Positions 14,837-51,423 of a stretch of 64,000 bases of DNA are shown here, in pieces (positions within the stretch are counted from its first letter, which is position 1; each line of letters starts with the position of its first letter). The stretch spans positions 20,243,666 through 20,307,665 of the forward strand of contig OX485807.1 of assembly GCA_950295325.1 (NCBI GenBank), in the 5' to 3' direction. Made by a program: the position numbers and the translations under genes. This stretch comes from Polytrichum commune. Its lineage: Eukaryota > Streptophyta > Polytrichopsida > Polytrichales > Polytrichaceae. The notes beneath the pieces are model-generated. The model searched no databases, had not been told where the DNA came from, and saw only the letters and a program-made list of their open reading frames with translations.

Positions 14837-15560
14837 TTAACCGAGGAGGAGAGTGAGAGTGAGCCTAACGCTAACATTTGCAGACCACCTCCTTCCACCC
14901 ACAAGGCCTACCGGCTATAGATCTGGCCATACCTAAATCTAACAATGAGTATGTGCAGCCGACTCCACACCACTTAAATGTCTAAATCCTAAGGTCTTTA
15001 TTCACTGCACTCTCGATCCAACAACCTTTGCTTTCACTTATACATGTTGTCAATACATAAACCAAGCCAAAGGGTTAGGGTAAGACGACACACTAGAAGC
15101 TTGCACAAACAATACACAACAATAACGTCTACAGCTAGAGCGAAGGTGGTGGGACTAGTTGGTAGCTGAAGATGCGAGAGAATTCACAAGATGGAGAGTG
15201 CACGGAGAACTAAAAGCCTCCCCAGAATTAAAAGATGTCATTGAGTTGGAAGGAAGGTGTGCAACAATAGGATACTCAACCCAAGGGGATAGGGTAGGTA
15301 GAGTGATTTTAGAGATCAATGCCATCATTTTGAAAGAAAAAATATCAATAAAAGAAGATTTTAGAGATCAAAGCTATCATTTTGAAAGAACAAAGTATGA
15401 GGATAAAATCTAGTAAACACTATATTCGTTAAATTGAGACTTTTTGGGCATTTTGAGACATTCACAGAAATAAGAACAAGGATAAATGGAACACGTATTG
15501 GAGAAAGTTGTAAGATGCAAACACTTTGAAGCGGGTGTTTAGAACAAGAACCCCATTAAT
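13683..15560. other. Intergenic stretch with simple repeats
   Basis: No supported gene. It holds a G-run near 14251-14264, an (AG)n microsatellite at 14789-14834, and several short open frames without recognisable motifs. Confidence 0.5.
14789..14834 (+). repeat. (AG)n microsatellite
   Basis: About 23 uninterrupted AG dinucleotides, visible directly. Confidence 0.97.
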
Positions 15561-15564
15561 AACT

Positions 15565-15825
15565 CATATTTGGGATTGTTTAGGGCGGGCAATCCAAACC
15601 TTAGGCCAAGTTGAAGGGGAAATCTTAAAACATTCATATTATCGCACAAAAACTTGTATGAATATGGTTTAGGTAGGGCAATCCAAACCATAGATCATAT
15701 TGAAGGGGAAATATGTGAACCAATATAATATAACATACAAAATATTCCAAACTCATATTTGTGATGGTTTAGGTAGGGCAATCCAAACCTTAGACCATAT
15801 GGAAGGGGAAATCATGTGACACTTA
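15565..15825. repeat. Three-copy tandem repeat, unit about 90-100 bp
   Basis: The text GGGCAATCCAAACC followed by a short spacer and GAAGGGGAAAT recurs at 15587, 15676 and 15776, with similar surroundings (TCATATTTGTGATGGTTTAGG) before each copy. Confidence 0.8.
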
Positions 15826-15954
15826 TATTATTGCAAAAAAAAACATACAAAGTGTGGCATGTAAAATGCATAGCATGCTAACACCACACATCCATTGGAT
15901 AGTGCGACCCAAAATGTTCTTGCCTATGGCCCAAAACCCTACGCCTACTATGGC

Positions 15955-16773
15955 CTATCTAGCCTCGGAGACTACCTCTTTTTCTTTTGCTTCATTTTCT
16001 TTTGCTTTTTTTACTTTTGCCTCTTTTTCTTTTGCCTCTTTTTCTTTTGCTGCGGCTTCTTTTGCTCGCATTGCTTCAACATTCCTGAAAATCTCCGCCC
16101 CGCGACTATAGCCATTCTTGGGGTGACCGCCATCAAAAACACATTTTGGATTCCGTCGGCCGCCCGAATTATACGACGGAGAATTCGAATACGATGAAGT
16201 GGACTGTCTTGCATTTCTGGTCATGGAGTAGAAACGCTCCAACTCGACGGACGCACTAGCCCGCATAGGTTTACGGGTGGGAGCAACCTGCAACGCGTCA
16301 ATGCAAGAACACATGTGTTAGTTTAGGGAGGAAGACCCAAACGTGTCACACGTTCAATTTTTAAGTGCGGGATGATTGTAATGCGCGGTTAACCATGTTT
16401 TGGGGGGGGGGGGGTTCACCTTGTCACCGGGGGCGTTCCCGTCGGAGTTGGCGAGGAGGGGCAAGGCGTCCCGCAAAGGGATAGGAAGGGTGCCACTCTT
16501 CGTGGGCCGAGCGTCCATCCGCAGCCGCCGTTGAGGTGTAATACTGCCGCCGGGCCGAGAGGGGGACGTCCGGACGCATTTGCGATTTATGCCCTTGAGC
16601 GGCGACGGGGACGGAGATGGCCGGAAGATTTGCTTGGGTGGGGGGCTATCGACGACGCCGGCGTCGATAGGCTCCTTGGAGTAGTCGATGGTGGACGCGG
16701 CATCGTAGACGGTCTCGTAGAAGAAGCTCCCCAAGTTTGATTCGTTGACGATCTCAATCAAGGGCTCCAAACG
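15955..16773 (-). CDS. Lys/Glu/Ala-rich protein, two visible exons, function unknown
   Basis: Two minus-strand exons fit together. One runs 16773-16420 between an acceptor (GCGCCAG) and a donor (GTGAAC). The second runs 16287-15955 after an acceptor (GCGTTGCAG) and ends at a stop. The first codes a helical start (RLEPLIEIVNESNLGSFFYE), a Pro/Ser-rich linker and a basic region. The second has an Arg/Ser-rich part, a short NPKCVFDGGHPKNGYSRG stretch and a C-terminal repeat of AKEKEAKEKE type, likely a single helix or coiled coil. No enzyme domain recognised. The 5' exon is not certain: a Met at 16857 opens the same frame but reads through what looks like intron. A G-run sits just inside the intron at about 16401-16414. 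Confidence 0.45.
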
Positions 16774-16892
16774 CTGGCGCAAAAAAGGAAACAAAACAAA
16801 ACCCAAGGGGAGGGGGGGAGGGGGGAGCATGTGAAAATCGATATACAATTGAGGCATAATATATCACACACAATGGCACACCATGTAGTATC

Positions 16893-17657
16893 TCAAATGA
16901 GTTTATTATATTTCGCGTGAGCGTACAACTCTCTGTACATATAGTCCTTCGGATCCATGTATCTTTCGCCTATCGGATTACAACTAAGGAACCGGGGCAC
17001 GGGTAGTCCGCTCCCCACGAGCGTTTGAATGTACTTAAGTAGGTCTAACAAAAAGCGGTCTCGGACCTTCTCGACCGTCCACGTGGGGCAAACTATGAAG
17101 TTCGAGGTCGGGTTCAAAATGTTTTTGGAAGCGTTGTCGTCCACCATCAACGTGTTGTCACGGGTGGGGCGAACGTCGTAGGGACAGCCGACCATGGTCG
17201 GACGCTGGTCCCATACGACTGGCTTCAAGACCTTAAGAAATTGGTTTACGGCGGGGTTGTTGGGCTTTTTCACAACCCTGCCCTCAGGGGTGTATAACGT
17301 TCTACAAGAGTCCTGTCCTAGGACCAAGCACGGGGGTTGGAGTCCCTTGAAGATGAACTCCACGACGGCCTGGGTGTTCTCGGACTTCATGGAGCTCCAC
17401 ACGATCACCCACCATTTGGATAGGGCGACCTGCAGGAAGCGCCGAAGCCACGGGCGGAGGTACACTAGCTTGCTTTTGATGTACGCGGGGGGACCATCGT
17501 AGTTGGCGTCCTCGGGCTTGCAGAAAGGCACCGTGGGGACCCTCGGACAATGCACGCACTGGACAAGGACCCCGTTGAGGTCTAGCACCAGGAACCGGGT
17601 CTTGGGAGGCGAAGGTGGCGAGGGCAAAATCGGGGGGACCACCGCGCTGTCCTCCAC
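16893..17657 (-). CDS. FCP1-like HAD-superfamily protein with DLNG motif
   Basis: Single-exon frame of 254 codons from ATG 17657 to a stop at 16893. After a Pro-rich leader, residues 21-31 read RFLVLDLNGVL. This is HAD motif I as in FCP1/NIF-type phosphatases, but with Asn where the second catalytic Asp (DxDx) is expected. The motif II region is VIVWSSM (84-90). Lys residues lie near 130, and LMVDDN at 170-175 matches the terminal VDD acidic motif. The FCP1 family dephosphorylates serine in proteins such as the RNA polymerase II tail. Plant relatives with DLNG exist, and their activity is unclear to me; loss of the second Asp suggests weak or no phosphatase activity. It sits downstream of the ParB/methyltransferase-like gene on the same strand. 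Confidence 0.75.
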   Translation of the reverse strand: MEDSAVVPPILPSPPSPPKTRFLVLDLNGVLVQCVHCPRVPTVPFCKPEDANYDGPPAYIKSKLVYLRPWLRRFLQVALSKWWVIVWSSMKSENTQAVVEFIFKGLQPPCLVLGQDSCRTLYTPEGRVVKKPNNPAVNQFLKVLKPVVWDQRPTMVGCPYDVRPTRDNTLMVDDNASKNILNPTSNFIVCPTWTVEKVRDRFLLDLLKYIQTLVGSGLPVPRFLSCNPIGERYMDPKDYMYRELYAHAKYNKLI

Positions 17658-18155
17658 ACTCCTCGGAGAGGATCGGTGGGGAGCTGCGACGCTATGCTCC
17701 GAACCCTGCGGCGACGAGCGAGAGAAGGCGGACGAGGACTATGTTATGCTATGTCCATCTCAAGCAAAACGGAAATTTTGTGCAAACACAAGAAGAATTG
17801 GACCATTGGTGGCAACAAAAACATACAAGGGGAACAACATACATTGGGACACGGATGCAAACATATGGGCGCCAAAAATAATAATTTTATTTTTACAAAT
17901 CTCTATGTACAATTTGATTGGGGGGGGGGGGGGACCGCGGTGAACGAGGGCATTCACACTATCCTAATTCTACATCTACAAAATTGGTTGCGCGCCGCCA
18001 AGGTCGAGCATAGTCGAGTGCAGGTGAGACGAAGGGGATCGCGGGGGGGCACGTTGGGGGAAGGGGGAGCAAGTGTAGAGCATGGGGGGCAGGGGGTGTG
18101 CATTTCCTCCTAGCAAGGGGGACACGACCACGCCAACAAGACAATGACCCAGGAA
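17658..18155. other. Interval between the FCP1-like gene and the large minus-strand gene
   Basis: Contains a G-run at about 17921-17933, a GC-rich tract at 17980-18120 and no supported coding frame. It probably includes the 5' region of the FCP1-like gene and the 3' flank of the gene ending at 18188. Confidence 0.4.
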
Positions 18156-18177
18156 GTTTGGGTCGGTCGACCCAAAC
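18156..18177. repeat. 22-bp palindrome, 3' flank copy
   Basis: Arms GTTTGGGTCG and CGACCCAAAC around a 2-bp centre (GT). It lies 11 bp beyond the stop codon of the gene at 18188-22736. Confidence 0.95.
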
Positions 18178-18187
18178 TGGGGAGGGC

Positions 18188-21100
18188 TCAGTGTATTACC
18201 TCGCCCTGGTCATGTCTCGACGATGTGGAAGCCTCCACCGTCCCCGCTGCCCCGCCTCTCTCGCCACCGCCTTCTCCGACGACGTCAGGAACCTTCTCCT
18301 GCAAACGATCGGCATCAGGCCCTTGTCCTAAACCAATCTCCGCATTTGCATCATGCATGGGTTCATCGATTTGGTTAGGAGTAGAGGTATCACCAGGCCC
18401 TTGCAAGCCTTCAACATCTAGCATGGCCGTGTCTAGTTGACACCCATGTTGGTCAAGGGAGGACTGCGCTGCAACGGGGTTTGGGTCGGGCGACCCAAAC
18501 TGTCCTGCATCTGGAGAGGGCCCTTCGGACACTCCAGTGGATGGTGGGTTTGGGTCGGTCGACCCAAACATCCTGGGGTCGTCCGATTGGTGAGGGGGGG
18601 CCATGACTATCGGGGGCCGAAGTGGTGGAGGGCCCAAAGGGGAGGAGGCTCCAGAGACGCGCCAGATGTTGGGGTCATCCACTTGCTGGACCGGCGCGTA
18701 CGGAACTTGGTGGGGCCGCATCAAGTGCTGGAAGCTGAAAGACGATTGCGGCACAGGCTGCTGAGGGATGCTCTGCGGAGGGAAGCCGGGGGGCAAGTGC
18801 GGGAAGGAGCTGGAGGGAGCCACCACCAAACCTTGCGCCCACATTCCTTGTATCACTTGTGATATCAATTCGGCGTGGGACGGAGGTTGGGCCATCGCCC
18901 TCTGTCGTTCCTGCTCCAACAGGAGAGCCCTTAGCTCTGCTACCTCGTTCCGCATTGAGGGTTCTTCCGCGGCAGCCTTCTGCAGGCGGACTCGCTGCTC
19001 CTCGTCCCTCCTCATCTTCTCGTTCGCCTCCTCCACAGTCAGGACCTCGGGCTTCACCCTAACCATGCCAGCGAACGCTGTCGGGGACGGGGGATCTGAT
19101 CTTAGCCGTTTGGCGAGCTCAATGTCATCGTCGTCCTCGCTGCTTATGGCAATGGTCTCCTCCACGGAGTAGTCGCCATACAGCTTCTTCCCCTTCATCT
19201 TCCTCCTCTCCCTGAACGTGGCGGTCGCGTCCCTGGAGTACATGTCCCGTGCATCGTCCACCGTCAGGACGGGCACGAGCTTACTCTGCGGGGTTGCCGC
19301 CCGCATCGCCTTCTTCCGTTGAGGGGCTTCGGATTCTTGCGTGAAGCCCGTTGCCCCTTCCTCCACGTCGCCTTCCTTCTCCGCCTCCTCGTGCTCCTCT
19401 TCTTCCTCCTCCTCCTCGACATCGCCACCTTCTGTGCGGGACGGATTGCCCGGATGCAACCCGACAAGAGGTTCGGGTTCTTGGGTTGTGGCCCTCATGG
19501 CCATTTCTTCCGGGTTGATCCGCCTCACCCTATCAAGAGGGTTTTCGCCCCCCTGAACAACCTCGTCGACGTAGCTACCCGGGATCCAATCGAGGATGTC
19601 CATCTTCTTCGCCAACGATCTCTGCGTCCTGTAAAATGGCAGATCGCCATCCTCTATGTAGGAGTATATACTCAGCCCCGACATCTACACAATCCAAGTT
19701 ATATAGACATTAGAATTAGGCGAGGGACATAAACAAGACCAAGTACAATGTGTAGTTTGGGTCGATCGACCCAAACCAACAAAGAGCCTAGTTTGGGTCG
19801 ATCGACCCAAACCAACAAAGAGACTAGTTTGGGTCGATCGACCCAAACCAACAAAGAGCCTAGTTTGGGTCGATCGACCCAAACTGTGCACGAGTTATAG
19901 AAAGTCGCTTACCATGGCAGCATAGATAGGTTTAGAGCCTCCGAAGACGTTGAAGATGCAATCCCCTCTCCTCCTCAGCGTCCTCATCATTCTCACGTAA
20001 AATTCCATCCGCAGCTCATCTAAAGGATAGTTCGCGTATTTAGCCTCGTCGTAGAGGCATTTGTTGACACCCAACCCTTCTGGAACTTGGAAGAGTTTGT
20101 CCATCCGGGATATAGGGTGGTTCGGCACCTTCAGCAACTCCGCTTTGTACACGAAGTACAAACACAAGACGTTGACGAACTTGGTCTTCTTGTCCCTCAA
20201 CGTCGTGTAAGCTCCCTCCGCCGGTGCGGCGATGTAGTGAGACTTGGAGACTGCATACTCCGGCTGCAGTTTCCGGACAAGCTCGTACACCTGCTCCGCC
20301 CTCCTATCCTCGACTATCCAAAGCTAGATATCTACCTCCCTGAACTTAGGGCTTGCATAATCGACGAACTTAGATAGGAAGGGGTCATAGAAGAGGGTGC
20401 TCATCGTGCCCTCAAATGAGCTTCCAGGAATATTCCTAAAATCAATCATCCCAAAAGGAAAGCGGTCCCTTGCTTTCGTCCTTATCGCCATTCTGGCGTC
20501 TTGACCTGGCCAGCCCTGAATTTTCAACGGGTCGGCGGTGACAAGGTTGAAGTACGCTTCCCCTTCAAACTGGACAATCTTCTTCTCCTTGATGAAGTTT
20601 GAGAACGCACGCGCTGTGTGATCCGGAAGCGCCCGGTTCTTCCCACCCTTCACCATCTTGGCCCGCAAGAAGTCGTCCCCCGCTTCCCTTATTAGAGCCG
20701 CCATGGAGGCACTGGTGAACTTATATTCAGCTTTGAATGCTCTCCAGTTAGCCTCATGGACCTCGCCGTCCACGACAATATTCCTCTCTGGCACTAGTTT
20801 ATGCAGCTCCTGCACGATAGTCGTCTTCTTTTTCCTGTTATCCGTCCATTCCTTCATGGTGTAGCATGAAGGAACGAAGGATTTGGGCTTTTGGAAGACA
20901 ATCTTCGGGTGCACCCAACACCTCTTCGCCGTGGGTGCCACGTGCAGGATGTGAGATGCCGCCTTCTCCACCTCCGTCTCTGACAGCCCTTGAAGAGTTC
21001 TAAAGAACTCTCTCACGAGAGGCTTCATCTGCTTGAAGCGCGAGGTTTGGCTGAAGAAAATGCCAGTGTCGGGGTCGATCAAATCCCCCGTCTCGTGCTT

Positions 21101-22736
21101 TTCAAACACGGTTTTCCACTTCCTCCAAACTGAGTCAGATGCTGTAATCAAGTAAATCTCCCCCTTGAGGTCGCTGTATTTCTTCTGCTTGTGGCTCGAA
21201 TTATCAATGGAGGAGAATTTGTTGATCATTTGGTATTTGAAATCCTGCACGTCCACAAAACAGAACATTTGAATGCGTGTTAGATATGTACATGTGATTT
21301 CCAACCCATATCATGACCAACATCTGCAACAACAGTTTGGGTCGATCGACCCAAACTAAATAAACTAGCTGCATCAGGAGTTTGGGTCGGTCGACCTAAA
21401 CAATACTCACCTCCCATTTGGGATTCTTGTCCTTCGCATTCTCCCTCTCCTTGGGAGGCCTACCATAGAACTCCCACACCTCCCGCGAGGCCATGATATT
21501 CCTTATCCAGGAAGCTTGGTAGGCCCTCTTCTTATTTCCCATATTGAAGTACCGGGAGATGTCGCTGAGCTTGGTCTCGTCGTCAGACCACACCACCAGT
21601 GCCTTCCAAACCTTCAGCTTTTCCTTCTGATTGTTCGGATCATCCCACTCATTCATGAGTTGGATTTTCTTGGATGCCTCCACGCTGTGCTGGCCGTCTA
21701 TGAGCCAAAAATCGCCCTTCTGAATTGTGGGCCACATTTCAGGTGTAGGCATTTTCTTGAGACCCTGTGGCATCACTACTATCGTTTGCCTGTCGTCTTT
21801 AAACTGCTCGCAAACGATATGCGCGATTATCCAGTCAACGTAGGCGTCCTCCTTTGCCCGGACACACTTCTCCGGTGGCGCTAGATGGCACTGGCTGATG
21901 TTCACGTCGAACTTAAAATCCCTGCCCATGAAAAAACAGTGGGAGCATTTCGTCGTGAAATTGTTCACGATTTTCTGCAGCTCCCATGCATCCACCTCTT
22001 CGCCGGGCTTCGGCATGCGCAACTCCGGTGAGACTGGCTCGTCAGTCATCACAGATGACTCTCTCCCCCTCTTGGATGGAGTTGTTTGACGGCTCCCAGA
22101 AGGTGTAGGCGTCTCGCTATCCGCAGGTGTTTGGGAGGGAGTGGTCCTCCGCGAGTCAGCCGGTACTGGTCGCGGCTTCCTCACCGATTGAGGTCTTGAC
22201 GACCCTGCTCCTTCCTCTGTGGTTGCTTTCCGCCTCATGGGTTGCTGAGACTTGGTTTTGCTCTGCAGGGCTTTGTTGAGCACGCTGATTGCATGCTTTA
22301 GTTTCGTGAATCTGCTCGACACCTTTGTGTTCGATGTACTGTTATCGATGAATATGGACTCCGGTTTGATGACGTCTGGTTCTACACATGTTTCTTTTGC
22401 ATAGATAGCGTCAAAGGGTTCGGAGAACTGGTGCATAAACATATGCGCGTTCTGGACAGCGTTGTTCTCGAGGATGACATCCACGTAGTCTCCAAGAGAC
22501 TGAACCGATGCCACCTCCCACCCCGTAAGAGTAGCCCATGTGTGTTTCTCCACGGTCCCAACCTTCACAACAAAAATCATTTTGTATTGCGAACCCTTAA
22601 CCACTTGTATAGACCACGCGAGGACAAGCCCGTCCTTAGGGGAATAGGAGTCATCCTGCGGGGTTTCGTGCTCCTGCCACAACATGTCCGGCGCAGGCAT
22701 GAACCACCTTTCGCCGGGTCTTTTCTTTGGAGCCAT
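18188..22736 (-). CDS. ParB/DGQH-domain and N4/N6 DNA-methyltransferase-like protein
   Basis: Three minus-strand exons join in phase: 22736-21411, 21244-19913 and 19684-18188, about 1384 codons. The start ATG directly follows an acceptor (TTCTTACAG), so a 5' UTR intron is likely. Exon 1 has a Ser/Thr/Pro linker and, near residue 346, FWLIDGQHSVEASKKI, the core of ParB/sulfiredoxin-fold or DGQHR proteins. Exon 2 has LFYDPFL (near 727), where beta-class DNA methyltransferases have DPPY. About 145 residues on it has LDELRMEFYVRMMRTLRRRGD then FNVFGGSK (near 873), the position of the C-terminal FxGxG AdoMet motif. Both motifs are degenerate, so catalysis is doubtful. Exon 3 is acidic, Pro/Gln-rich and coiled-coil-like. 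An in-frame TAG at 20324-20326 (likely CAG originally) interrupts exon 2, unless a 45-nt intron removes it. ParB-methyltransferase fusions are known in phages; the homology here is from motif reading only. Confidence 0.6.
18479..18500. repeat. 22-bp palindrome inside coding exon 3 (copy 1)
   Basis: Arms match the family; the centre is GG, so symmetry is broken only there. On the minus strand it codes FGSPDPN within the Pro-rich tail of the large protein. Confidence 0.92.
18548..18569. repeat. 22-bp palindrome inside coding exon 3 (copy 2)
   Basis: Arms match the family with centre GT. On the minus strand it codes FGSTDPN, 48 bp from the next palindrome at 18479-18500. Confidence 0.93.
19755..19884. 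repeat. Four tandem palindromes, 36-bp period, in intron 2
   Basis: Perfect 22-bp palindromes with centre AT start at 19755, 19791, 19827 and 19863, separated by a 14-base spacer (CAACAAAGAGCCTA, one variant). The cluster lies in the intron between exons 2 and 3 of the ParB/methyltransferase-like gene. Confidence 0.97.
21335..21401. repeat. Two palindromes in intron 1
   Basis: A perfect copy (centre AT) at 21335-21356 and a near-perfect copy at 21380-21401 (one mismatch in the right arm). Both lie in the 166-nt intron between exons 1 and 2. Confidence 0.95.
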
Positions 22737-22763
22737 CTGTAAGAAAATAATGTGCAATGTTAG

Positions 22764-22785
22764 TTTCGGTCGTTCGACCCAAACA
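22764..22785. repeat. Palindrome upstream of the ATG
   Basis: A copy with one mismatch in the left arm (GTTTCGGTCG) and centre TT. It is 28 bp upstream of the start codon, in what is probably the 5' UTR intron. Confidence 0.85.
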
Positions 22786-23033
22786 TCTACGACATGAATA
22801 GGTTTAGGTGGATTGTATATTTATATATTTCAGCATCATTTGTATTGATAATAAGAATGTTTTGATTATTGGGTGGATTTGCATTTTATATTGTTTGTGA
22901 CATGCAGGATTACTTGATATTTTTCCTTGATACATTCCTTGATTATTATTTTTTAGTGGATGTGAATTTTATATTGATGCAAAAATCATGGATTTCTTTA
23001 TGAGTTTATAATTAGAAGACGTTGTTTGGGTCG

Positions 23034-23219
23034 TTCGGCCCAAACATGATGCTTTCTTTTGTGTTTGGGTCGGTCGACCCAAACAAGAGGCTGTGTTTGG
23101 GTCGTTCGGCCCAAACATGATGCTTTGTTTTGTGTTTGGGTCGGTCGACCCAAACAAGAGGCTGTGTTTGGGTCGACCGACCCAAACCTGTGGCCGTGTT
23201 TGGGTCGTCTCCCCAAACT
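23034..23219. repeat. Six-copy palindrome cluster upstream of the ParB/methyltransferase-like gene
   Basis: Copies start at 23034, 23063, 23095, 23134, 23166 and 23198. Two distinct types alternate at first: one with centre GT, the other reading GTTTGGGTCGTTCGGCCC before AAAC. The last copy is degenerate. The block 23063-23094 plus 23095-23133 is repeated nearly exactly. Confidence 0.93.
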
Positions 23220-23472
23220 TTCCTATTTTAATGTAATTTTTAAAAGTTGGCACGTAGCATATACAATGCTTATGCGTTGTGTATGCTACAATACCTTCAA
23301 TTGACAAACACTTATTGCATATAATAAAAGAAAATACCTTTGTTGTATGTAGCAGTTGTTGTAAACAGTTGCTTTAGAACAGGTGTTCTTCTTCCAATAA
23401 CACAGAAACAGTTGAATGTAACCTCTCACACAAATCCACAATCTCTCATACAACTCCTAGATCTCTTTTGAA

Positions 23473-23790
23473 TCTCTCAAACAACAATTCAATACTTCAA
23501 ACAACCTCTGAATCTCTAAGAACAAGTGAATCTCTCAAAACAATAATTGACTCTCTCAAATGACTTAGATATCTCTCAAACAACAATTGAGTGTTTCAAA
23601 CAACCTCTGAATCCCTAAGAACAAGTGAATCTCTCAAAACAATGACTGACTCTCTCAAATAACTTTTGTATCTCTCAAACAACAATTGAGTGTTTCAAAC
23701 AACCTCTGAATCCCTAAGAACAAGTGAATCTCTCAAAACAATGACTGACTCTCTCAAATGACTTTTGTATCTCTCAAACACCTCCTGATT
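23473..23790. repeat. 99-bp tandem repeat, just over three copies
   Basis: TCTCTCAAACAACAATT recurs at 23473, 23572 and 23671, with a partial copy at 23770, exactly 99 bp apart each time. Within each unit TCTCTCAAA and GAATCTCT sub-repeats recur. No coding frame. Confidence 0.93.
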
Positions 23791-24347
23791 ATCTTATAGA
23801 ACTCCTAAATCTCACAAACTCTCCAACTACAATACAGCCTCCAAAACCCGCAAGCTTAGAATGTTGGAAAACCCTTCAACAATCTTCTACTTACTTCACT
23901 CTACAACAATCACTCTACTAACTCTCACGCACTCTAAAACTCTCTCCTTAGGTTTCTGTTCTATTGCAAACACTTCCTAACTTCTACAGCAAGAGAAGGG
24001 AGGGAAGGAGAAGAATCAGTAGGCGCCAAAGCAACAAGAAGGGAGGGAAGAGAAGAAAATCACCACCCTGAATCGCCACGGCGCTTCGCGAAAGCGGCGC
24101 TTCAGGAGAGGCGGCGCTTCCACAAGAGGCGCGGAGCGAATGCTTGGCGCGGAGAGAGAGAGAAAGAGCGAAAAGTTGTGACGGCTGGGGTTTTGTATGC
24201 CTCGGGAATTGGCCCCCAACCGCACGAATAGGGTGCCAACGGGATTAGGGCACCAACAGAATTAGGATTACGGGGAACCCTAAATCCTAAAGCCAAACTG
24301 TAAACCCTTAGCGGGCATTAGTATTTTCAAGACACTTTGGAGTACCC
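23791..24347. other. Interval between the 99-bp repeat and the MITE
   Basis: CT/CA-rich to 23990, then a purine-rich GC tract. It contains AACCCTAAATCCTAAAG (telomere-like) near 24275. No supported gene. Confidence 0.4.
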
Positions 24348-24350
24348 TAA

Positions 24351-24881
24351 TGGGGCATTCCCACTTGACTTTAGTTAAGACCCTCACTATTTTATAAAGA
24401 CCGGGTAAAGCTCCCTCGGTTATAGCGGAGGCATCCAACTATCCCAATGCACCTACAAGAACTTGCTCCGGAGATTTTCAAGTAGGTTTTAGTTAAGTAG
24501 CTTTCACACATGTTCATGGTTTTATCTACCAAGCAATGAATGTTGGGTAGTTTTTGTCCCATCCCCAAATGCCTTACTACTCACCTATCTTACCATCGGT
24601 TTTTGTTAATGAAGCTCCTCGTGCCCTCATAGCTAAGACTAAAAAGCAACCAATCACAAGGGTGGGAGGCGACACTTTTAAAATTCCTATATTCTTGCCT
24701 AATGTTTAGGTACCGATGGGAGCGTCGGTGGTTGAGGCTTAAAACCTCCACTTTTAAGCCATGCCACATCATTTGCCACCTAGGCTCAGCACTAAAAAGA
24801 GCCATATGTGTGAAACCTAGATAACTAAAACCGCATTTAGACTAATACTACTTCTAACTAATGTCAAGTGGGAATGCCCCA
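24351..24881. mobile_element. MITE, Tourist-like, 531 bp, TAA duplication
   Basis: Inverted ends start TGGGGCATTCCCACTTGAC and match over 27 of 28 bases. TAA flanks both sides (24348-24350 and 24882-24884). The TAA duplication is typical of PIF/Harbinger mobilisation. No coding capacity. Confidence 0.85.
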
Positions 24882-25328
24882 TAAGGTGCACATCAAATGC
24901 GGTATTCTACAAAATGAAACCATTTATACAACTAATGCATTTTTACAACGCAACGTTATGCTAAAACTAAGACTTAACCCCTACTCACATGACACCATAA
25001 CCTAAATTTCCCAAACAAGTTGAAATCATTGGTTTCTCTTTTGTTTGAGCAAGTTAGAAAAATAATACAATTGCGTGACATTTAACGATGTAATCGTTGA
25101 CATTTAGACTTTACCAATGATGCCAAGAACTCACACAATATGCAATGAATAAAAAATATAACCCCCGTCCCCCAACATGAAATTCGGAAATTTAGGATAT
25201 TTGAATGTGTTTGCTAAATGTATACCTTCCCCAAGAGCATTTTCTCAGGGTTTGGAATTGCATGATCCTTATGTCGAAATGCTAACATGCTCAAGTTTTT
25301 AGTAAATCCCTTACATACTCACTTGAAT

Positions 25329-26160
25329 GAATCACATAGTCGCCAATAAACCATGGATCGTGATATATGTACTTCGAATGTGATATAAAAGTAAATCGGA
25401 GAACCACAACATCAAATGAAGCCCTTTGACGCAATCATGTTGTTATTGAATGTTCCCTCCACGTATATTACATAATGGCGCAAGATAAAGTTCATGTTGT
25501 TTGTATGTGGAGGTAGCAGTGAACAACTACGAATTTTTCTATTTAGGGTTTAGGGTTTAGGGTTTAGGAGTTAGGTTTATAACATATTAATCTATCCAAT
25601 ATTAACATATAACATTGACTTACTGGTGAGAATAGGTTTTTACTGGAAGGTAATAGAAAAGACGATCTTGATTATGTTTATTTGTTATTACGGACGTTTA
25701 AACGTGATATAGTGAATGGTCTTGTGTTTATTCAAATAACATGAAATGTTGTGGATGTTATTAGGGGTAAGGGGTTCAACTTTGGATGTTTTGCTCACTT
25801 TAGGGAATCACATAGTCGCCAATAAACCATGGTTCATGATGTATTTAATATATGGAATGTGATGCAAAAGTAAATAAGAGAAGCACAACATCAAATGAAG
25901 CCATTCACGCAATCATGTTCTTATTCATTGTTCCCTCCACATGTATTGGATAATGGAGAAAGATATAACAGATATTGTTTGCATAATATGAAGAAGAGTC
26001 TAATAGGAAGGTTATAGTAAATACAATCTTGATCATGTTAATATGTTATTTGGGACGTTTAAACATGATATACTAATTGGTTTTGTATTTTGTCAATACG
26101 TATTTCATGTTGTGGATGTTATAAGGGTTTAGGGTCCAACTTTGGATGTTTTGGTCACAC
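25329..26160. repeat. Diverged tandem duplication, about 0.4-0.5 kb unit
   Basis: ATCACATAGTCGCCAATAAA recurs at 25331 and 25807. The AC(G/A)ATCTTGAT block recurs at 25662 and 26023, and the CAACTTTGGATGTTTTG block near 25779 and 26139. Offsets differ (476 and about 360 bp), so the two copies have indels. No gene. Confidence 0.8.
25542..25567 (+). repeat. Interstitial telomere-type repeat, TTTAGGG x3-4
   Basis: Three full TTTAGGG units plus a partial unit in the plant-type telomere sequence, placed inside the tandem duplication. Confidence 0.9.
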
Positions 26161-26315
26161 ACATTAGTAAACTTGAAGTGAACTTGAGGATGGATTGAAA
26201 TAACATTAAAAGATTGAACCAAAAAGCGACATTGCTAGTTAGTATCCCCTTAACAACGTCCACATACGTTTATCATTGCCACACTTCCATGCGAGATAAC
26301 AGAGCCGCAATGTTC

Positions 26316-26334
26316 TAGGGTTTAGGGTTTAGGG
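26316..26334 (+). repeat. Short TTTAGGG repeat
   Basis: About two and a half TTTAGGG units. Too short to show a chromosome end. Confidence 0.85.
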
Positions 26335-26339
26335 GAGAC

Positions 26340-27019
26340 AAATAAATAATTTTATTCATCATGACAATGGCCTCAAGCCTTGGAAACTCTCTCATAATTG
26401 CAACCTCCAAATGGCCCCAACCCCACCTAAATAGGTTTGCACTTGAAAGCATTGAATGGAGTTGTGTTTGGGTATACATATTGGTTAAAATATACCGTTG
26501 TGACACTTGAAAAAATTAATGTGGCCGCCACCCTTCCTCCCAATGTCGTATGTCATATACACACAAAACCAAAAAAAGATTAAATATCATAGACTAAGAC
26601 ATATGACGGCTGGGGTATGAGAGGGGCATTGAAAGATGCGCATTTTCTACAATAAACAGAAAACGGGGAATTCTGTCAGGAGGTTTGAAATAAGAAGGCG
26701 GGAAAGGCATCCAATGAGGAAGTCGGGCAAGTGGAGGTGGATAGTATAAAGGGGCGCACCCCCCAAAAGTTGGTTCTTTTTTGCTCTTCTCCCACTCCTG
26801 AATTCGTAGAGAGAACTCTTAGTCGGAGCTGTACTTCGAGGTTCGTTCACGCTGTTGTTCATGAGGACCTATTCACAGCATGCAAGTCCGCAGTGAACTT
26901 TGCAATGAGATGAAATTCCACACACCTCTCAATATCCGCTGCATTATACGCCGCATTATACGTTGTATTATACGTCGGTCGACACTAGTGTTGGCGGGTT
27001 TCAGTCTGACCCTTGTGAG
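26340..27019. other. Intergenic stretch before the palindrome array
   Basis: Contains a short GCATTATACG-type repeat at 26939-26976 (three units of 12 bp) just before the array. No supported coding frame. Confidence 0.4.
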
Positions 27020-28052
27020 GTTTGGGTCGGTCGACCCAAACCCCTCCACTAGTGTGGGCGGGTTCTAGTCTGACCATTCTGAGGTTTGGGTCGATCGACC
27101 CAAACCCCTCCACTAGTGTGGGCGGGTTCTAGTCTCACCCTTGTGAGGTTTGGGTCGGTCGACCCAAACCCCTTCACTAGTGTTGGGGGGGGGGGTCTAG
27201 CCTGACCCTTATGAGGTTTGGGTCGATCGACCCAAACCCCTTCACTAGTGTTGGGGGGGGGGGTCTAGTCTGACCCTTGTGAGGTTTGGGTCGGTCGACC
27301 CAAACCCCTTCACTAGTGTTGGGGGGGGGGGGTCTAGTCTGACCCTTCTGAGATTTGGGTCGGTCGACCCAAACCCCTACCCCACTATGGGCGTTTATCG
27401 TAAAACCTTTCAGAAGGTTTGGGTCGGTCGACCCAAACTTTTTCGCACATCGTGAACGAATTGTTAATGGCCCTTACCCAAGGTACTCAGAAGGTTTGGA
27501 CGGACAGAGTAGGAACCTTATCCCATCATATGTAATGTTTGGGTCGAGCGACCCAAACCTCATCCCAGTGTGGGTGGATTTACACTGTGAAAGTTTGGGT
27601 CGACCGACCCAAACCCTTTCCCAGTGTGGGTGGACTTACCCTGTGAAAGTTTGGGTCGACCGACCCAAACCCCTTCCGAGTGTGGTGGGTTTACCCTGTG
27701 AAAGTTTGGGTCGGTCGACCCAAACCCCTTCCCAGTGTGGATGGATTTAGCCTGTGAAAGTTTGGGTCGACCGACCCAAACCCCTATCCAGTGTGGGTGG
27801 ATTAACCCCGTCAAAGATTGGGTCGGTCGACCCAACCCCTTCCCCAATTTCGGAGGTTGTAGTTGACCATGACAAGGATTGGGTCGGTCGACCCAAAATT
27901 TTCCCCACAGCGTGATGGAATTCTAAATGGCCCTCAACCCATCATTGTACAAGGTTTGAGTCGGTCGACCGGAACCCGACCCTATCCCACGGGCAAGGTG
28001 TGGATGGCCCTCAATCCCTGGTGCCACAGGGTTTAGGTCGGCCGACCCAAAC
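27020..28052. repeat. Sixteen-copy palindrome minisatellite array
   Basis: Copies start at 27020, 27084, 27148, 27216, 27284, 27353, 27417, 27537, 27593, 27649, 27704, 27760, 27816, 27877, 27954 and 28031. The first block (to about 27374) has 64-69-bp units with the spacer CACTAGTGT...AGTCTGACCC and growing G-runs. The block 27537-27836 has about 56-bp units with spacer CCAGTGTGGGTGGA...CTGTGAAA. Copies from 27816 are progressively degenerate. Centres vary (GT, AT, AC, AG). It ends about 200 bp before the ATG of the DUF7869 gene. Confidence 0.95.
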
Positions 28053-28252
28053 TCCCACCCAAAATATTTTGTGGAACATTTTGTGGACTGGCGCATAGTA
28101 TTGGGAGCTCACATTGCATTTGTGTTGCAAATGTCTTGATCCTCAGTGTCCCCATTTATCGTGATGTTTTGCATTTTCCAATATTTGATTTTTTTGGACT
28201 CTTACGTTGTGTCCATGTTTGTTGAGGTTTCATGTGCATTTGTGTAGGCGCA

Positions 28253-31200
28253 ATGGAGGGAGTTGGTGGAAGAGGGGATTCCTTCTCTGAAGACATGGGC
28301 AGCACCCAATCTCTGTCTGGGGATGAGCTAGACATTGTCGGGGAGGATAGTTTTGATGACAGTGCAGATGAAGGTCATTTGGGGAGTCCTTCGCCATCTG
28401 ACCCTTTTTGCCCCATTGTGGAATGTGCGGGGCTTTCACGAGCTTCATGGGTGAATTTGGATGTGGTACTTGTTAATGACAGTGGAGTTGCTGTGGCGGA
28501 GGGTATTTGTCGTAACACACATCCACAAGATTGCATTGATGAACACTCCCTTGGCACCGAGGACGTTGGAGTTGTTATATTAGAATCACTTGTACATTCG
28601 GAAGTCAATCCAACTCATAGGTTCTCGTTGCGAAGGTGGCCGTTGAGGAATGTGACAATTGAGGGGGTTAGCTTGCGCGACCATGAGCGACGACACGTCC
28701 AAATCCAACAGGAGCTCCAAGCAAACATTCGGCCACGCAAAGGCCTTCGGAAGTACGAAACATTGACACGTCCTACTCCGTCTGCAAATAAGTGTAAACG
28801 TCAAAGGTTGCTCTGTGAGGAGTCTATTAGAGAAGTTGCTACGAAGGATTGTTGTGTACATCGTTGTTGCCAATTGTTCCCAAGAGATAAATTGAAGGCC
28901 ATCCGTGAAGAAATGTGGCTTGGAGATTTCCGTCTAAAATCCACCAAAAAACTTGATGTCCATAGGGCGATACATGTGAACGGAGCGGGTCGCAAGGTCA
29001 TCACCCTTGAGAGCATAGACGTGTGTTGTACGGCATAGTACACCATTCACGGTGTATCGAAAGCGGAATTTTATAGACAAGCCGCATATGCCAATGAAGG
29101 CCGCCGTGCCCGTCACCATGGGAACACGGGCTTAAAGAAACCAAGAGAAGCAACGAGACAAGCAACAGCCACTCTGGCAACCATCATTGTCCCCCTTGCC
29201 GATGCAATGCCGCACAAAACACGGACACTCGCAACCGGTGAAAAGGTTGTGGAGAAGGTTCTTCCTACAGGCACGAAATGGAAAGACATATTGTTGGACG
29301 TAAACGCAGTTGGCGAGAAGGCCGGGTTGGACCCTATTTCGTTGTCGAAACTGAGTGCTATAAAAAAATCTCACTTTAGCGAATACATCACAAAAAGACG
29401 AGGCGACAAATTTGCCCGTTGTTCCAAATGCGAGAAGTTGAAACGCCTTCGAGATGCACACACGATGGGGACAGAGTCCTATGCCGCACATCAAATGAAC
29501 TATTTCAAGCATGTGAACATGCAAGAGGCACACCGTAATGATTACTACACAAATAGAGCTTTGTCCATCTCCAGGCCTTTGGAAGTCCTTACAATCATCC
29601 ATGACAAAATGGACCATGCCAAAACAGCCTCACCATGTTTTGCAAATCGAATAAAAGCCACGGACGGCCTTTTTAAGCTTCCTGTTTCGGTTACAGGTGA
29701 TTTTGATAACAATTGCATTGCATTACCTAAACACAAATTTGTGCGTTTAGGTTTGTACTTGGGGCCATACATGTACACCATGTGAATTTTTTGGTGTTAT
29801 ACTTGAATATTAAACCATTGGGTTGCCTTTGCAGGAATGATTGCACATGGGCATGGAGATGTCAAGTATGCTCATTATGCTCTTGATTTGTATCCGGGGG
29901 ATTCAAACCACACGATAGGGTCATTTGCAAAGCTTTTACGTGATTTGGAGAAACCGCCGTCCTATTCATCAAGATTGCTATTTGAAAACTCGGGATCAAC
30001 ACCTCTATATGAAGCGGTCTTGGATGGAAGAGATGTATGCGTGCACTCATTGCCGGAGCCACCAAGTGAAGATGTGATTGCCAAGAATTTGCCCCCAACT
30101 CTACGTGTCCAATTGGACAATTGTGCGAAGGACAATAAAAGTAGATATGTTTTTGCATATTGGTCGTTGTTGGTTGCGAAAGGCATTTTCAAGGAGGTTT
30201 TTGTGTCCTTTCTATTGGTAGGCCACACGCACGATGATATTGATGCGTCCTTTGGGCGGTGGAGCATGAAGTTGCGCGAGGAGGATTTTCCGACAATCCC
30301 ATTGTTGATGAAGTCGTACATGGATTTGGAGAACATTCTCGTCATCCCACATATGATTGAGGAGGTTCCAGACTTCAAGGCATTTATAGAACCGTATATT
30401 CGAAGCGGAGCTCACCGATTGATCGGGCATACGAAGGCACAACAATTTCGGTTCTACGTGCGTGACGATGGTGTCCCCGCCATGCAATACAAGTTGTTGT
30501 GCACATCACAAGACTGGAGCCCGCCGGAGGGTCTCCTTGTATGGCGTGTTGATGGGGAAGGAAGGACGATGTTGCCTGACGGAGAGCCTAAGCCTTGCAA
30601 ACCAATACCCATGAAGAATTTGGAGGACATTTGTAAAGGCATATCAGGCTTCATACAATATTGGGAGAGTTTGAGGGTAGCGGATGTTGGTGGATCGTGT
30701 TGGCTTCGTTACGGAAGTTGGATACAATATTGGACACGTGTTCGTGGCGCTTTGGCAAACCTTCATCAAGATACACCCCTTACTTTAAGGCATGGGTTTT
30801 GGCCACAAACACGTGTCAATGTACAAGCTTCGGAGGCTAGTCTTTTGGAAAATGGAGAGGTTCGAGAGGAGTTTGATGTGGACGACCATTACGTGGGGCC
30901 TGCTAGTAGTCGTCCGCCACCATCTTTCCGCATTGCAGTGGATTGTCATGAAGGTTATATGCTCATTTTGCGTCCTGGAGATGAGACATATGCAAAGCCA
31001 GTGTGGGTGGCAAGAGCTTTGTCCAAACCAAATTTTGTAACTTCCAGCCCTCATTTTCGACAAATACAAGTAGAGTACTACCGACCGACATCACGGAATG
31101 AAGATGTTGTTCGGCATTATACAAGCTGGGATACAAACCCTAACTTTCGGTGGAAGGTGGATTCTGAGCATGGTCCATCTTGGATAGATACAGATTCCAT

Positions 31201-31321
31201 ATTCATAGCATGGAAACCACGGAAAAATCATAGTGGATCGGTGTCCATCCCTCAAAAGTACATAACTTTTGCAAAAGACAACCTTGCTCGGATCGCAGAA
31301 GAAGCAACCCACGTTAAATGA
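28253..31321 (+). pseudogene. DUF7869-type transposon protein, one stop codon in exon 1
   Basis: Two exons, 28253-29696 and 29835-31321, joined across a GT-AG intron in phase (VSVT-G-MIAHGHGD), give about 976 codons. The N-terminus is acidic. A middle part has the Cys/basic segment CCVHRCCQLFPRDKLKAIRE. A possible zinc-binding ARCSKCEKLKR lies near residue 390. Exon 2 carries LDNCAKDNKS (near 576) and VGHTHDDIDASFG (near 612), the signature of DUF7869 proteins, found in many repetitive eukaryotic genes and probably of RNase-H-like transposase fold (inference). An in-frame TAG at 29036-29038 follows CCTA, where the reading continues with protein-like text. A CAG to TAG change would explain it. 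It sits directly downstream of the palindrome array, which may be part of its promoter or element end. Confidence 0.7.
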
Positions 31322-33590
31322 GAAGTTGGTAGGATTGTGTTAGCATGATTATAGTGTAATATGTAATTCGACGAATATATATTACTCATATGTGTGCTCC
31401 TCAAACTTGGGGCAAAGTTTGGGTAGAACTTGCGAATGCTATATTGTTTGGGGTTGGATGAATATCCATTTACTATATTTCAATACAGTTGTGAAGTTCA
31501 TTTTTTTTATTAAGTTTGGGACTAAATTGTCCATTGAAGAAAAATGCATTTATTGCATGCACTTTGTATGTTGCAATGTCTATATTTTATTGACCATGCT
31601 AATAATATAAACCATTTTATATGTTTATTGGATGAAACTAGTTTGGAGTGCTCTACCCAAAGTGTTTTTGTTGATGAAGTTGGTGTTGAGTGCTCTACCA
31701 TATGTGCTTATGTCCACACATAATAGATTTGGGATATTAGAACATATAATATATTTGAGATTGTTCGCAATATAGTTTCGGAACACGGAATGTTGTTTGA
31801 TCCATATATTAATTTGAGACTAGAGAAAGTCTCAATTTAACGAATATAGTGTTACAGTATAAGAGATATAAAGTTACCACACATTAAGTAGGATTTTTTT
31901 ATCAAATCAATCAATTTTGAAACCACCTCACCTATATCTCACCTATATGTAACTACCAATTATGTTAGTAAAATGTATTGGTACATTTAAACTTATACGG
32001 AATTTGGAATATGTAGCAATAGTAAGGATGAAAGTAGAAATTTAGGATTATGATCATCCTAAAGGCTTATTGGATATAAGTGTTAGAAAAAAAAATCTCA
32101 TCTAAGAATGTTAGAAATAAAATAGGATTTAGAGTGAAAGAAGATGTATATTATTTGGAACATAAAATCTAGTTAGAAGAATTAAAAAATATATATAGGA
32201 AGATGTTTTTGGGAGGAAGACCTCTTTCCACAACAACGTAGTTATTTTAAGATTGAGTATTAAACGACATTTGAGCTTATCTTGTATCTCACCTCTTTCG
32301 AGGTATCCTTCTCAATACACATTCAATTTTTCTATACTCAAGAAATGTTAGTTTTTTTTTTTTCTCTCTCTCAATCCTTTGTGGATTGTTGGATGTTGTC
32401 AGACTTGAATGATTTGATAGTTGAGAAGATAGTAGCCTCTTTTAAGCAAACAATCAAAAAAGTAGTATAAGGGTGAGATTGAAGTGCTCAAGACTTTGAA
32501 GAATTTTGAGAAACAAAATGATGTTGAATTACATCTTAAAATCTCATCAGTGACTTGATATAATTGAATTCAAGTTTATTTAATTTTCACAAATAACAAC
32601 TTATGATTGAACTCCTTAAAAAGAATTGTTAAATTTAAATGATTATAGCTTGGAAAATTTAATTAAATATCTCGGAGAGTTCTTTTGTCATCAACAATTA
32701 ATAATATTGATTGAAATGATTCAGTTTTAAAAAATATGGATGAAACTTTATTATAATAACACAACTCTAAAAGCTCACTCCATCTTAATTGTCCCACGAT
32801 CAATGAGCCTTACATCGAGAGTGGATATAATTAAAATTGAGATCTTTTAGTTCCAAAGTAATCATATTTAAATCATAAGAAGAAAAACATGTTAATATTT
32901 TAAACAATAGTTTTCGGCCGAGCACATTAATGAGGCACTGTATTTTTCAAGCGATCATAAATTATCATAATGTTCTATTGAGAGTCTACCTAGCTTATTG
33001 CAAAGGAACAACTCACGGTGTTCATCACACGCCTTCATCCGCGCATGCCTTCATCCACATAAACCTTCATCCGCATACATCTTCGTCCACACACATCTTC
33101 ATCTACACAACATCGTGCCGGGTCTTTGTGTATTGCCTAATCGTCTACCAATGCTAACTAATTGATATTAATCTACTCCTAATAACCTCGGGGGGGACAC
33201 TTCACTATACTTTGTGTGAACACGTGCGTTAAAGGGGTATTTAAATGAGGCTATCACATAATTGGAATATTTGAGGTATATTCTCGATATATTCTCTAAT
33301 TATTCTCTAATTATTTCTTACTTGAATTTTAAGCATCCTATATTACATCTAAATTTTTCTAAATTTTATTGCTTATGAATAAAATACACCCTATATTTTA
33401 ACGCACCATGTTTACTAATTTTCCTAAGTGTCCTCACCGAGCTAATAACTAACTTCCGTTCTTAACTAGACAGTGAGCCTTAACTCAAACAGTGAGCCTT
33501 AACTCACATGTGTTAATTCCAATTTCATCATAAAAAATGTCCCATGCCACCTAATCATGTGACCAAAACACACCTTAGACAGTCCGAATG
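31322..33590. other. AT-rich intergenic stretch
   Basis: No supported gene. There is a T-run at 32349-32361, and an imperfect 14-15-bp minisatellite (CTTCATCCACATA type) at 33030-33112. Confidence 0.5.
33030..33112. repeat. Imperfect minisatellite, CTTCATCCACA-type unit
   Basis: Five to six imperfect units of CTTCATCCGCATA or CTTCATCCACACA with 14-15-bp spacing. Confidence 0.75.
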
Positions 33591-46267: not shown

Positions 46268-47587
46268 ATGATGGACAATAACTATTGGACTATGAGGAGG
46301 GAACAACATGAAGTAATTAGAACAATGTATGAAGAAGATGTACATATCTATGAAGTTGTTGTAGATGTAGTTAGAGATCTCCATAATCAAGTGTTGGAAC
46401 TTGGCGCTATTGATCCTCCTAGGCGTGGCGGTTCAAGACGTGGAAAAAAACCGAATATTGCACGGGGAAGAATTGAGGGGCATGAACGTTTGATGAGGGA
46501 TTATTTTGTGGAGGATCCAGTTTATGATGCAAGGATGTTTCGTCAAAGGTTTAGAATGTCCAAGCGTTTGTTTTTAAGAATTTTGGAAAGTGTGCAAAAC
46601 TATGACTCATATTTTGTGCAAAAACCAGACGCTACTGGACAATTGGGGTTGAGTGGCTTGCAAAAATGTACAGCAGCGATGCGTATTTTAGCTTACGGCA
46701 TTGCATCTGATGCTACAGATGAATATGTACGATTAGCATCGAGCACGTCAATGTTGGCATTAAAACGATTTGTGAGGGCTATTAGGGCTATATATGAGAG
46801 AACATATCTTAGACAACCTACCAGAGAGGATCTAGAAAAGCAAGTAGCAATTAATACAGAACGTGGATGGCCTGGTATGTTTGCATCATTAGATTGTATG
46901 CACTATGAGTGGAAGAATTGTCCCACTGCATGGCAAGGCACTTTTCAAGATAGAGAGGGGAAAAACTCCATAATATTGGAAGCTATTGCAGACCAAAGCT
47001 TGTGGATATGGCATGCCTTCTTTGGTTTGCCTGGGGGAAATAATGACATTAATGTACTTGATCGTAGTCCTTTGATCGCTAACTTTTTAGAGGGTCATGG
47101 CCAAGATATGAGTTTCGAAGTAAATGGTCATAGGTATCCACATTACTATTTGTTAGCAGATGGGATTTATCCCAAATGGACTATATTTGTACAAACAATT
47201 CATGATCCTCAAGGAGAGAAACGGCAATACTATGCGAAGATGCAAGAAGCTGCACGTAAAGATGTGGAGCGTTGTTTCGGTGTTTTGCAATCAAGATGGG
47301 GAATTATTCAAAATCCAAGTCGTCAGTGGGACTTGAATACCATCAAGGACATTCTTATGGCATGTGTAATCATGCATAACATGATCATTGAAGATGAAAG
47401 AGATCAAGAATTGGAGCCCATAATTGCAGATACCATTAATGTACCGTGGAGACATGGACCTATGAGAGGTGGATTAAACTTTGAAGATTATGTACGTGGA
47501 CATGAAATGATTCGAGATGAAAGGTCACACTACATGCTTAGAAATGACCTCATGGAACATTTGTGGGCATTAAAGGGAAGCTTATAG
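46268..47587 (+). CDS. PIF/Harbinger transposase, intact 439 residues
   Basis: Single frame from ATG 46268 to TAG 47585-47587, the usual length for plant PIF/Harbinger transposases (Plant_tran/DDE family). A helical N-terminal part (residues 80-130, RQRFRMSKRLFLRILESV) precedes the catalytic core. The presumed catalytic residues are Asp209 (ASLDCMHYEW), Asp298 (YLLADGIYP) and Glu334 (KDVERCFGVLQ), followed by the CVIMHNMIIEDE block. No stop or shift. The enzyme would cut element ends in the nucleus and insert at TWA sites, with the Myb-like protein at 41944-43218. Divergent orientation and intact frames of both suggest a potentially autonomous element. Its inverted ends were not found by eye. 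Confidence 0.93.
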   Translation: MMDNNYWTMRREQHEVIRTMYEEDVHIYEVVVDVVRDLHNQVLELGAIDPPRRGGSRRGKKPNIARGRIEGHERLMRDYFVEDPVYDARMFRQRFRMSKRLFLRILESVQNYDSYFVQKPDATGQLGLSGLQKCTAAMRILAYGIASDATDEYVRLASSTSMLALKRFVRAIRAIYERTYLRQPTREDLEKQVAINTERGWPGMFASLDCMHYEWKNCPTAWQGTFQDREGKNSIILEAIADQSLWIWHAFFGLPGGNNDINVLDRSPLIANFLEGHGQDMSFEVNGHRYPHYYLLADGIYPKWTIFVQTIHDPQGEKRQYYAKMQEAARKDVERCFGVLQSRWGIIQNPSRQWDLNTIKDILMACVIMHNMIIEDERDQELEPIIADTINVPWRHGPMRGGLNFEDYVRGHEMIRDERSHYMLRNDLMEHLWALKGSL

Positions 47588-51056: not shown

Positions 51057-51423
51057 CAGAGCCCAACATTTTCCTTTCTAATTGCACCCATACCCAGACC
51101 ATGCCCATCATCAACGACCTATGCCCACCCATGCCCACCCATAGCATGACATGTGCCCACCCATACCCACCCATGCCCACCCATGCTATTCAAATTGCGC
51201 CCATGTATTAAAAAATTATGTAATGTGTATTGTGTAATTATGTAATTGTGTAATTATGCCCCACCCATGCCCACCCATGCCCGCCCATGAACAATAATAG
51301 CACAGCCATGCCCACCCATGCCCGCCCATGAACAATAATATTGCACCCATGCCCACCCAAAACCCATGGGCATGGGTGGGTATGGGCATGGGCATGGGTA
51401 TGGGCGCCCGATGTAGGGCTCTG
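51057..51423. mobile_element. hAT-type non-autonomous element, 367 bp, 8-bp duplication
   Basis: Ends CAGAGCCC-ACAT and its complement form a short inverted repeat with one mismatch (A/T). The 8-bp duplication GTACAAAG flanks it (51049-51056 and 51424-51431), as in hAT elements. The interior is mostly CCCATGCCCA-type minisatellite units (51110-51400). It interrupts the Rep-like gene, so it inserted later. Confidence 0.85.
51110..51400. repeat. CCCATGCCCA minisatellite inside the hAT-type element
   Basis: Repeats of CCCATGCCCA or CCCACCCATG, including a strong self-complementary part (51360-51400 reads GGGCATGGGTGGG and similar on the other strand). Confidence 0.9.

Follow-up and report, generated by a model that had tools for sequence, protein, structure and literature searches.

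Family-specific palindromes in transposons of Polytrichum commune as candidate recognition sites of element-encoded proteins

Introduction

In the bacterial ParB-parS and Noc-NBS systems, a ParB-fold protein is found beside repeated palindromic sites. In Arabidopsis, VANC21 binds arrays of the motif YAGTATTAY in the non-coding DNA of VANDAL21 and removes methylation, and VANC6 uses other motifs, which are found too in the unrelated element AT9TSD1 (PMC5735166). The TnpA protein of En/Spm is encoded by the element itself, and its activating effect on the element is correlated with demethylation (PMC10398659). The Ectocarpus transposon Sola1-1_Ec32 has an accessory protein, ParB-like and with a DNA methyltransferase, whose gene runs opposite to that of the transposase, and such algal proteins have been suggested to bind and modify their own transposon (PMC12477816). 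Here, we describe a 64,000-nucleotide stretch of the Polytrichum commune genome (assembly GCA_950295325.1, contig OX485807.1, positions 20,243,666 to 20,307,665 of the forward strand), referred to as the window, in which a transposon with CACTA-type terminal inverted repeats (AACACTATATTCGTTAAATTGAGACTTT; window positions 15416..31853, ~16.4 kb) contains all copies of a repeated palindrome.

With fair probability, these palindromes are recognised by a transposon-encoded, probably dimeric DNA-binding protein that keeps the element expressed in a VANC-like manner. Among the titles and abstract openings searched, mostly of non-subscription literature, no published account of palindromic sites for ParB-like transposon proteins was found.

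Palindromes in the window and across the genome

A scan of the window with the query GTTTGGGTCGNNCGACCCAAAC, allowing at most three mismatches and with 100 shuffles as the control, returned 31 matches to the palindrome GTTTGGGTCG-NN-CGACCCAAAC, all inside 18156-28052, against none in the 100 shuffles and none in the rest of the window; a degenerate 32nd copy is discernible on reading the sequence around 23198-23218. The original prediction of about 32 copies within 10 kb and none elsewhere in the window is thereby borne out, as is the placement it gave around one gene and in a 16-copy array. One palindrome lies in the 3' flank of a three-exon minus-strand gene (18156..18177), two in its coding exon 3 (18479-18500 and 18548-18569), four in intron 2 with a 36-bp period (19755..19884), two in intron 1 (21335..21401) and six in the 5' flank (22763..23187), this placement resting on splice signals read by eye and not on RNA. 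The remaining sixteen form an array (27020..28052) immediately upstream of a divergent gene for a DUF7869 protein. Palindromes starting in coding DNA amount to 2 of 31, against a coding share of 47% for the element (binomial P = 1e-6, with coding boundaries of which a few differ slightly from the exon coordinates given below).

The palindrome had been taken as the mark of one locus, a notion rejected on the strength of 9,231 exact copies in the genome (408 Mb, 64 contigs; none for the reversed-pattern control), carried by a high-copy mobile element. It is a dispersed repeat in this sense, yet it stays with genes of the predicted kind and, as described below, its arms diverge more slowly than the spacers. 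The first 100 copies listed fall into seven clusters, all on contig C1 and all examined. The window element accounts for three of these and a second element type, unrelated to it, for the other four, so that every sampled cluster accompanies either window-type genes or a second element of ParB type. No exact match was present in the viral and prokaryote sequence collections.

The spacing of the arms is strongly dominated by the 2-bp centre, with 169 genome matches for arms spaced 3-20 bp against the 9,231. The 100 rows listed for the wider spacings (50 places, both strands) consist of a single 31-bp form with occasional point variants; where its surroundings were read, in one region (L010, C1:4668501-4675800), that form, GTTTGGGTCGAGCATTTTGCTCGACCCAAAC, is the hairpin tip of a foldback repeat of ~400 bp; a flexible dyad spacing was rejected on these grounds. 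The 10-bp arm common to the foldback and the palindrome may be a matter of chance.

Different palindromes in homologous elements

Four loci from other DUF7869 groups, distinguished by open-frame length, were examined (L049 to L052), and repeated palindromes are present in all four. L049 and L050 each hold seven copies of CCCACGGGTG-NN-CACCCGTGGG, six of them upstream of DUF7869; L051 holds twelve of TTTACGAACG-NN-CGTTCGTAAA, upstream, and L052 has the imperfect palindrome AGGTGAGGCATATGCCCCACCC upstream. Adjoining L051 is the locus L053, which contains a homologue of the window's accessory protein (35% identity, E 1.9e-67) interrupted by an in-frame stop. Nine palindromes precede this homologue; two more directly follow exon 1, where intron 1 would lie, and a further two come after the stretch homologous to the end of exon 2, at the position of intron 2. 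The GTTTGGGTCG palindrome itself has no match at up to three mismatches in L051 and no exact one in L053. Homologous elements thus carry different palindromes at corresponding positions, and this is the strongest single result of the analysis.

Palindromes of the second element type

The second element type, found among the GTTTGGGTCG clusters as L008 and L009 and as two fragments, L039 and L040, identified by eye from sequence in common with L009, codes for a protein that has a DGNHR motif. The transposase-like open reading frames of these elements gave no convincing Pfam match and the type is therefore left unclassified, though one motif looks, presumably, MULE-like by eye. Of 26 loci of this type (L008, L009, L011 and L014-L036; the stop-rich L012 and L013 were left out), an automated picker for 22-bp palindromes in at least three copies, restricted to palindromes of even length, was positive in 17, against none of 11 control pieces, two of which overlap one another, and none of 104 Markov shuffles. 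The palindromes include GGGGTTTCGGTACCGAAACCCC in L016, GAGGCCTCGGATCCGAGGCCTC in L022, L033 and L035 (with one base changed in L036), GGCATCTCGGATCCGAGATGCC in L014 and L029, AATCCCACGGATCCGTGGGATT in L024 and GGTGTCTCGGGACCGAGACACA in L020. Further, 23-bp near-palindromes recur at a 360-bp repeat in L018, L030 and L032, and L028 has one such. Overall, two layouts are seen: the window family, L049/L050 and L051 have 10-bp arms that flank a free 2-bp centre, and most palindromes of the ParB-fold type have CG-4bp-CG centres. The arms of most family palindromes contain CpG, the exceptions being GAATTCTGCANNTGCAGAATTC (L025) and the L052 palindrome.

Palindrome and protein are associated. Ten of the 12 protein pairs with at least 80% identity have at least 18 of 22 palindrome letters in common, and in the other two (L008 vs L009, L008 vs L011) the picker chose differing ones of the element's two palindromes. 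A common palindrome is found in 0 of 66 pairs at 45-80% identity and in 2 of 58 below 45% (L019 vs L015, L019 vs L034), and the association between palindrome and protein (Mantel r 0.63) was reached by 0 of 20,000 permutations. The same pairing is apparent in the genome, where the protein-match lists give the best 93-150 scored of 899-1,491 candidates, so that a protein missing from a list means little. The L016-type palindrome GGGTTTCGGTACCGAAACCC occurs in 35 copies forming 16 clusters, 13 of them with a listed protein of at least 71% identity to L016 no more than 5 kb away and two (L043 and L045) adjoining a gene remnant; 13 of 18 L016-type proteins have a cluster. For CCTGTGCGTTAACGCACAGG, with 490 copies, 10 of the 11 clusters among the places listed, all on C1, lie within 2 kb of an L008-type protein match, and for GAGGCCTCGGATCCGAGGCCTC, with 1,903 copies, three of the four clusters among the places listed were examined and each stands beside the family protein.

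Sites held in common and the possibility of a host factor

Some sites are held in common by elements that are otherwise unrelated. The L008-type elements carry a palindrome that looks to be their own (CCTGTG...) together with that of the window family, GTTTGGGTCG-NN-CGACCCAAAC, which is present in L008, L009 and L011. L022 has, besides its own palindrome, three sites of the CCCACGGGTG-NN-CACCCGTGGG kind, two exact and one with a base change in each arm; a nested insertion was rejected as the origin of CCCACGGGTG in L022, the matches to L049/L050 being just 21-33 bp long. In L009 (4670-5830) and in L011, of the same element type, a second 22-bp palindrome, CCCTGTGCGTTAACGCACAGGG, is arrayed.

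We tentatively suggest, with rather less than even confidence, that each family has its own protein and palindromic 'address', and that the second element type twice acquired an address of the DUF7869/CACTA type and uses the other transposon's protein too, such elements being parasites that tap anti-silencing codes. From the sequences, elements of one type may then use the protein of the other.

The sharing of one palindrome between two unrelated element types, along with the concentration of sites in promoters, introns and the 5' flank, would also be expected if the transposon relied for its expression on a host transcription factor binding the palindromes. A single factor would keep the sequence constant, however, and families within the same genome differ in their palindrome at corresponding positions, tracking the element's protein, so that we consider a host factor unlikely, albeit the best placed of the alternatives.

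Location of the sites and constraint on their arms

Alignment with copies B and C (both on contig C1) spans ~15416 to ~31854 of the window and then stops, and the inverted repeat AACACTATATTCGTTAAATTGAGACTTT is present at both ends of the window copy; copy D, for which the left end only was compared, has that end in common with the window element. In flowering-plant CACTA elements, TnpA-bound arrays lie near the ends. By analogy, the palindromes could serve transposition, with the transposase or a TnpA-like partner binding them to synapse or excise the element, and one protein may serve both this and an expression-related role. The sites of the window element are all internal, however, with none in its first 2.7 kb (left) or last 3.8 kb (right), and their location is that of introns and gene flanks, which makes a role in transposition improbable.

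Constraint was assessed by comparing 15 gene-region sites with copies B, C and D, the 16-copy array being left out. Against copy D, the most diverged, differences affect 17 of 280 aligned arm positions (6%), 19 of 28 positions of the 2-bp centres (68%) and 104 of 267 positions of non-coding flank up to 20 bp away (39%), compared with 195 of 549 for other non-coding DNA and 914 of 4,085 (22%) for coding DNA. The arms differ at 5 of 260 positions from copy B (other non-coding DNA, 49 of 707) and at 12 of 219 from copy C (76 of 632). Arm positions are gapped at 20 (D), 40 (B) and 81 (C), some sites being missing, and the alignment favours palindrome-to-palindrome matching, so that arm divergence is possibly somewhat underestimated. 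The arms are therefore kept while centre and spacers vary, as had been predicted, and the sequence comparison supports the pattern expected of selected protein-binding sites. As to the prediction that the sites are 'selected or gene-converted', the pattern of selection holds up, but gene conversion alone is a poor fit to the 68%, 39% and 6% seen in centres, near flanks and arms.

These figures bear on a further alternative, that the palindromes are functionless repeats spread passively through tandem duplication and gene conversion. Several of the arrays are indeed tandem repeats, with periods of 36, 64-68 or 56 bp, and copy number therefore grows by duplication. Set against this are the identities with copy D (94% in the arms, 32% in the centre and 61% in the near flanks), the recurrence of the same arms across separate gene contexts and the dominance of the 2-bp spacing, which together leave purely passive spread with little probability. 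RNA hairpins in transcripts, instead of DNA sites, would account for arms that change jointly between families with pairing preserved, but are very improbable given that the arm letters themselves, beyond pairing, are preserved over many sites within an element, that 16 copies lie upstream of a gene, and that a 2-nt loop is generally too tight for a full hairpin.

A predicted ParB-like fold

For the second-type protein, the AlphaFold (AF2) model has a predicted local distance difference test (pLDDT) score mostly of 70-94 across residues 95-240. Among PDB structures, Foldseek ranks Noc, ParB, sulfiredoxin, PadC and KorB as the best matches to it, at probabilities reaching 1.00, and VIA-align against ParB gave Z 9.1 and a root-mean-square deviation of 2.0 Å across 92 residues. 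The model thus supports a predicted ParB/Srx fold for this protein. In the window protein, the match is to the ParB-like phrog_1033 of PHROGs and is weak (E 0.069). The earlier description of the window gene as 'ParB/methyltransferase-like' consequently fares unevenly: a weak match is what the window protein offers, and it is for the second-type protein that a ParB fold is predicted. No Pfam match to the ParA ATPase was found among the nine element open reading frames scanned.

Weighing the proposed recognition system

The proposed mechanism may be outlined as follows. The likeliest binder in the window element would be the product of the three-exon minus-strand gene, which has a ParB-like signature; the fixed spacing within the palindrome points to a symmetric dimer, and the pairing of site with element family suggests the element's own protein as its reader. 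The protein would dock on the palindromes of the element's genes, located in promoters, introns and flanks, and docking would change the chromatin or DNA-modification state such that the element stays expressed, as VANC does for VANDAL. Should the specificity of the protein drift, the sites of the element would be replaced together, giving rise to a family-specific palindrome. The binding of the palindromes by the element's protein, its dimerisation and its anti-silencing role are each put forward here from the DNA sequence.

Several observations weigh against this proposal. The occurrence of the GTTTGGGTCG palindrome in two unrelated element types is not predicted by a strict model of one protein and one site. 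The picker was blank in 9 of the 26 second-type loci, and the L019 palindrome has 19 of 22 letters in common with those of L015 and L034 despite 39% protein identity. The association between palindrome and protein partly reflects common descent, and among the L016-type loci one of 16 clusters (L044) is without protein or remnant and five of 18 proteins are without an exact-copy cluster. On the side of the protein, the Foldseek E-values for the second type are 0.008 at best, and Pfam and PDB sequence searches with its protein family did not find a ParB relative. The ParB-like part of the window protein has a pLDDT of 35 in its structure model, and against the ParB-fold family profile it scored 21.2, inside the shuffle range (mean 13.6, max 25.0, n=100), so that homology to ParB is not established by profile.

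Genes and neighbourhood of the window transposon

The accessory gene on the minus strand comprises exon 1 (21411..22737), with a DGQHS signature resembling ParB, exon 2 (19913..21244), with an in-frame TAG at 20324-20326 in the window copy, and exon 3 (18188..19684), without a Pfam match; the splice sites of exons 1 and 2 were placed by eye and exon 3 by reading of the sequence. The FGGSK at the end of exon 2 we take to resemble a methyltransferase motif, and two pieces of this exon gave no methyltransferase match in Pfam, NCBIfam or PHROGs. The divergent plus-strand gene (28232..31321) ends in an open reading frame (29837-31321) with DUF7869 (PF25273; Pfam, E 5.6e-40), whose product is probably the transposase. 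CACTA/EnSpm elements have a Transposase_21 domain and a 3-bp target-site duplication. Pfam did not find Transposase_21 in the divergent gene, matching DUF7869 there instead, and no target-site duplication is evident at the window copy, with ATAA/ATAA possible at copy B. Also within the transposon are a minus-strand open reading frame for a NIF/FCP1-like phosphatase (16893..17657; PF03031, E 9.9e-14) and a short TTTAGGG tract resembling plant telomeres (25542-25579).

At least 93 matches to the exon-1 protein, spread over contigs C1 to C7, are present in the genome with 91-100% identity. With part of the copy-D protein as the query, 24 of 150 scored matches (D included) are identical across 161 residues; going by the sequence, the family has therefore probably spread recently.

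Elsewhere in the window lie an open reading frame with a Replitron HUH endonuclease domain on the minus strand (51254-51967; PF21859, E 1.4e-8) and a 439-aa open reading frame on the plus strand (46268-47587) with Plant_tran (E 1.2e-86) and DDE_Tnp_4 domains, presumably a Harbinger-type transposase. In the genome at large, light-harvesting genes are numerous, and one cluster of them gave 14 matches at equal top score (C5:1751760-1846160). Leaving aside the long composite chain 9vfj, one light-harvesting protein of this genome is closest to the PDB chains 8htu and 7xqp, both of moss, so that the DNA probably comes from a moss or a related land plant.

Meaning and relation to known systems

If the proposed recognition by element-encoded proteins is correct, a single genome would hold a natural series of proteins paired with palindromic targets of ~20-22 bp, readable from sequence, and the evolution of transposon self-recognition would become directly testable. 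Further, ParB-fold transposon proteins would gain candidate binding sites, the series would supply programmable-looking DNA-binding pairs, and VANC-like self-recognition would have arisen again with a different protein fold, perhaps bacterial in origin.

The likeness to the VANDAL/VANC system lies in arrays of motifs in the introns and other non-coding DNA of one transposon family (PMC5735166, PMC10398659), in related proteins that go with different motifs, an association drawn here from sequence alone, in arrays that grow as tandem repeats, and in a motif found also in an unrelated element (VANC6 and AT9TSD1). The systems differ in that the sites here are palindromes of ~22 bp, as against the nine bases of the VANC21 site YAGTATTAY, and in that the protein of one of the two element types here has a predicted ParB fold; hypomethylation of the element, a feature of VANC, is here part of the proposal. 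The VANC domains DUF1985 and DUF287 had no Pfam match in the window exons, nor in the second-type scans, which covered the ParB-like exon and one later exon of L008.

With the algal system, the elements described here have in common a ParB-like accessory protein whose gene is oriented opposite to that of the transposase; they differ in that candidate, diversifying sites are visible here, none being mentioned in the available text on the algal proteins, and the methyltransferase part is a resemblance of motif only. As with En/Spm TnpA, an element-encoded protein is proposed to activate its own element, though the sites here are internal palindromes. Finally, as in ParB-parS and Noc-NBS, the predicted ParB-fold protein of the second element type adjoins repeated palindromes, and the difference lies in the many family-specific sites seen here, in the transposons of a photosynthetic eukaryote.

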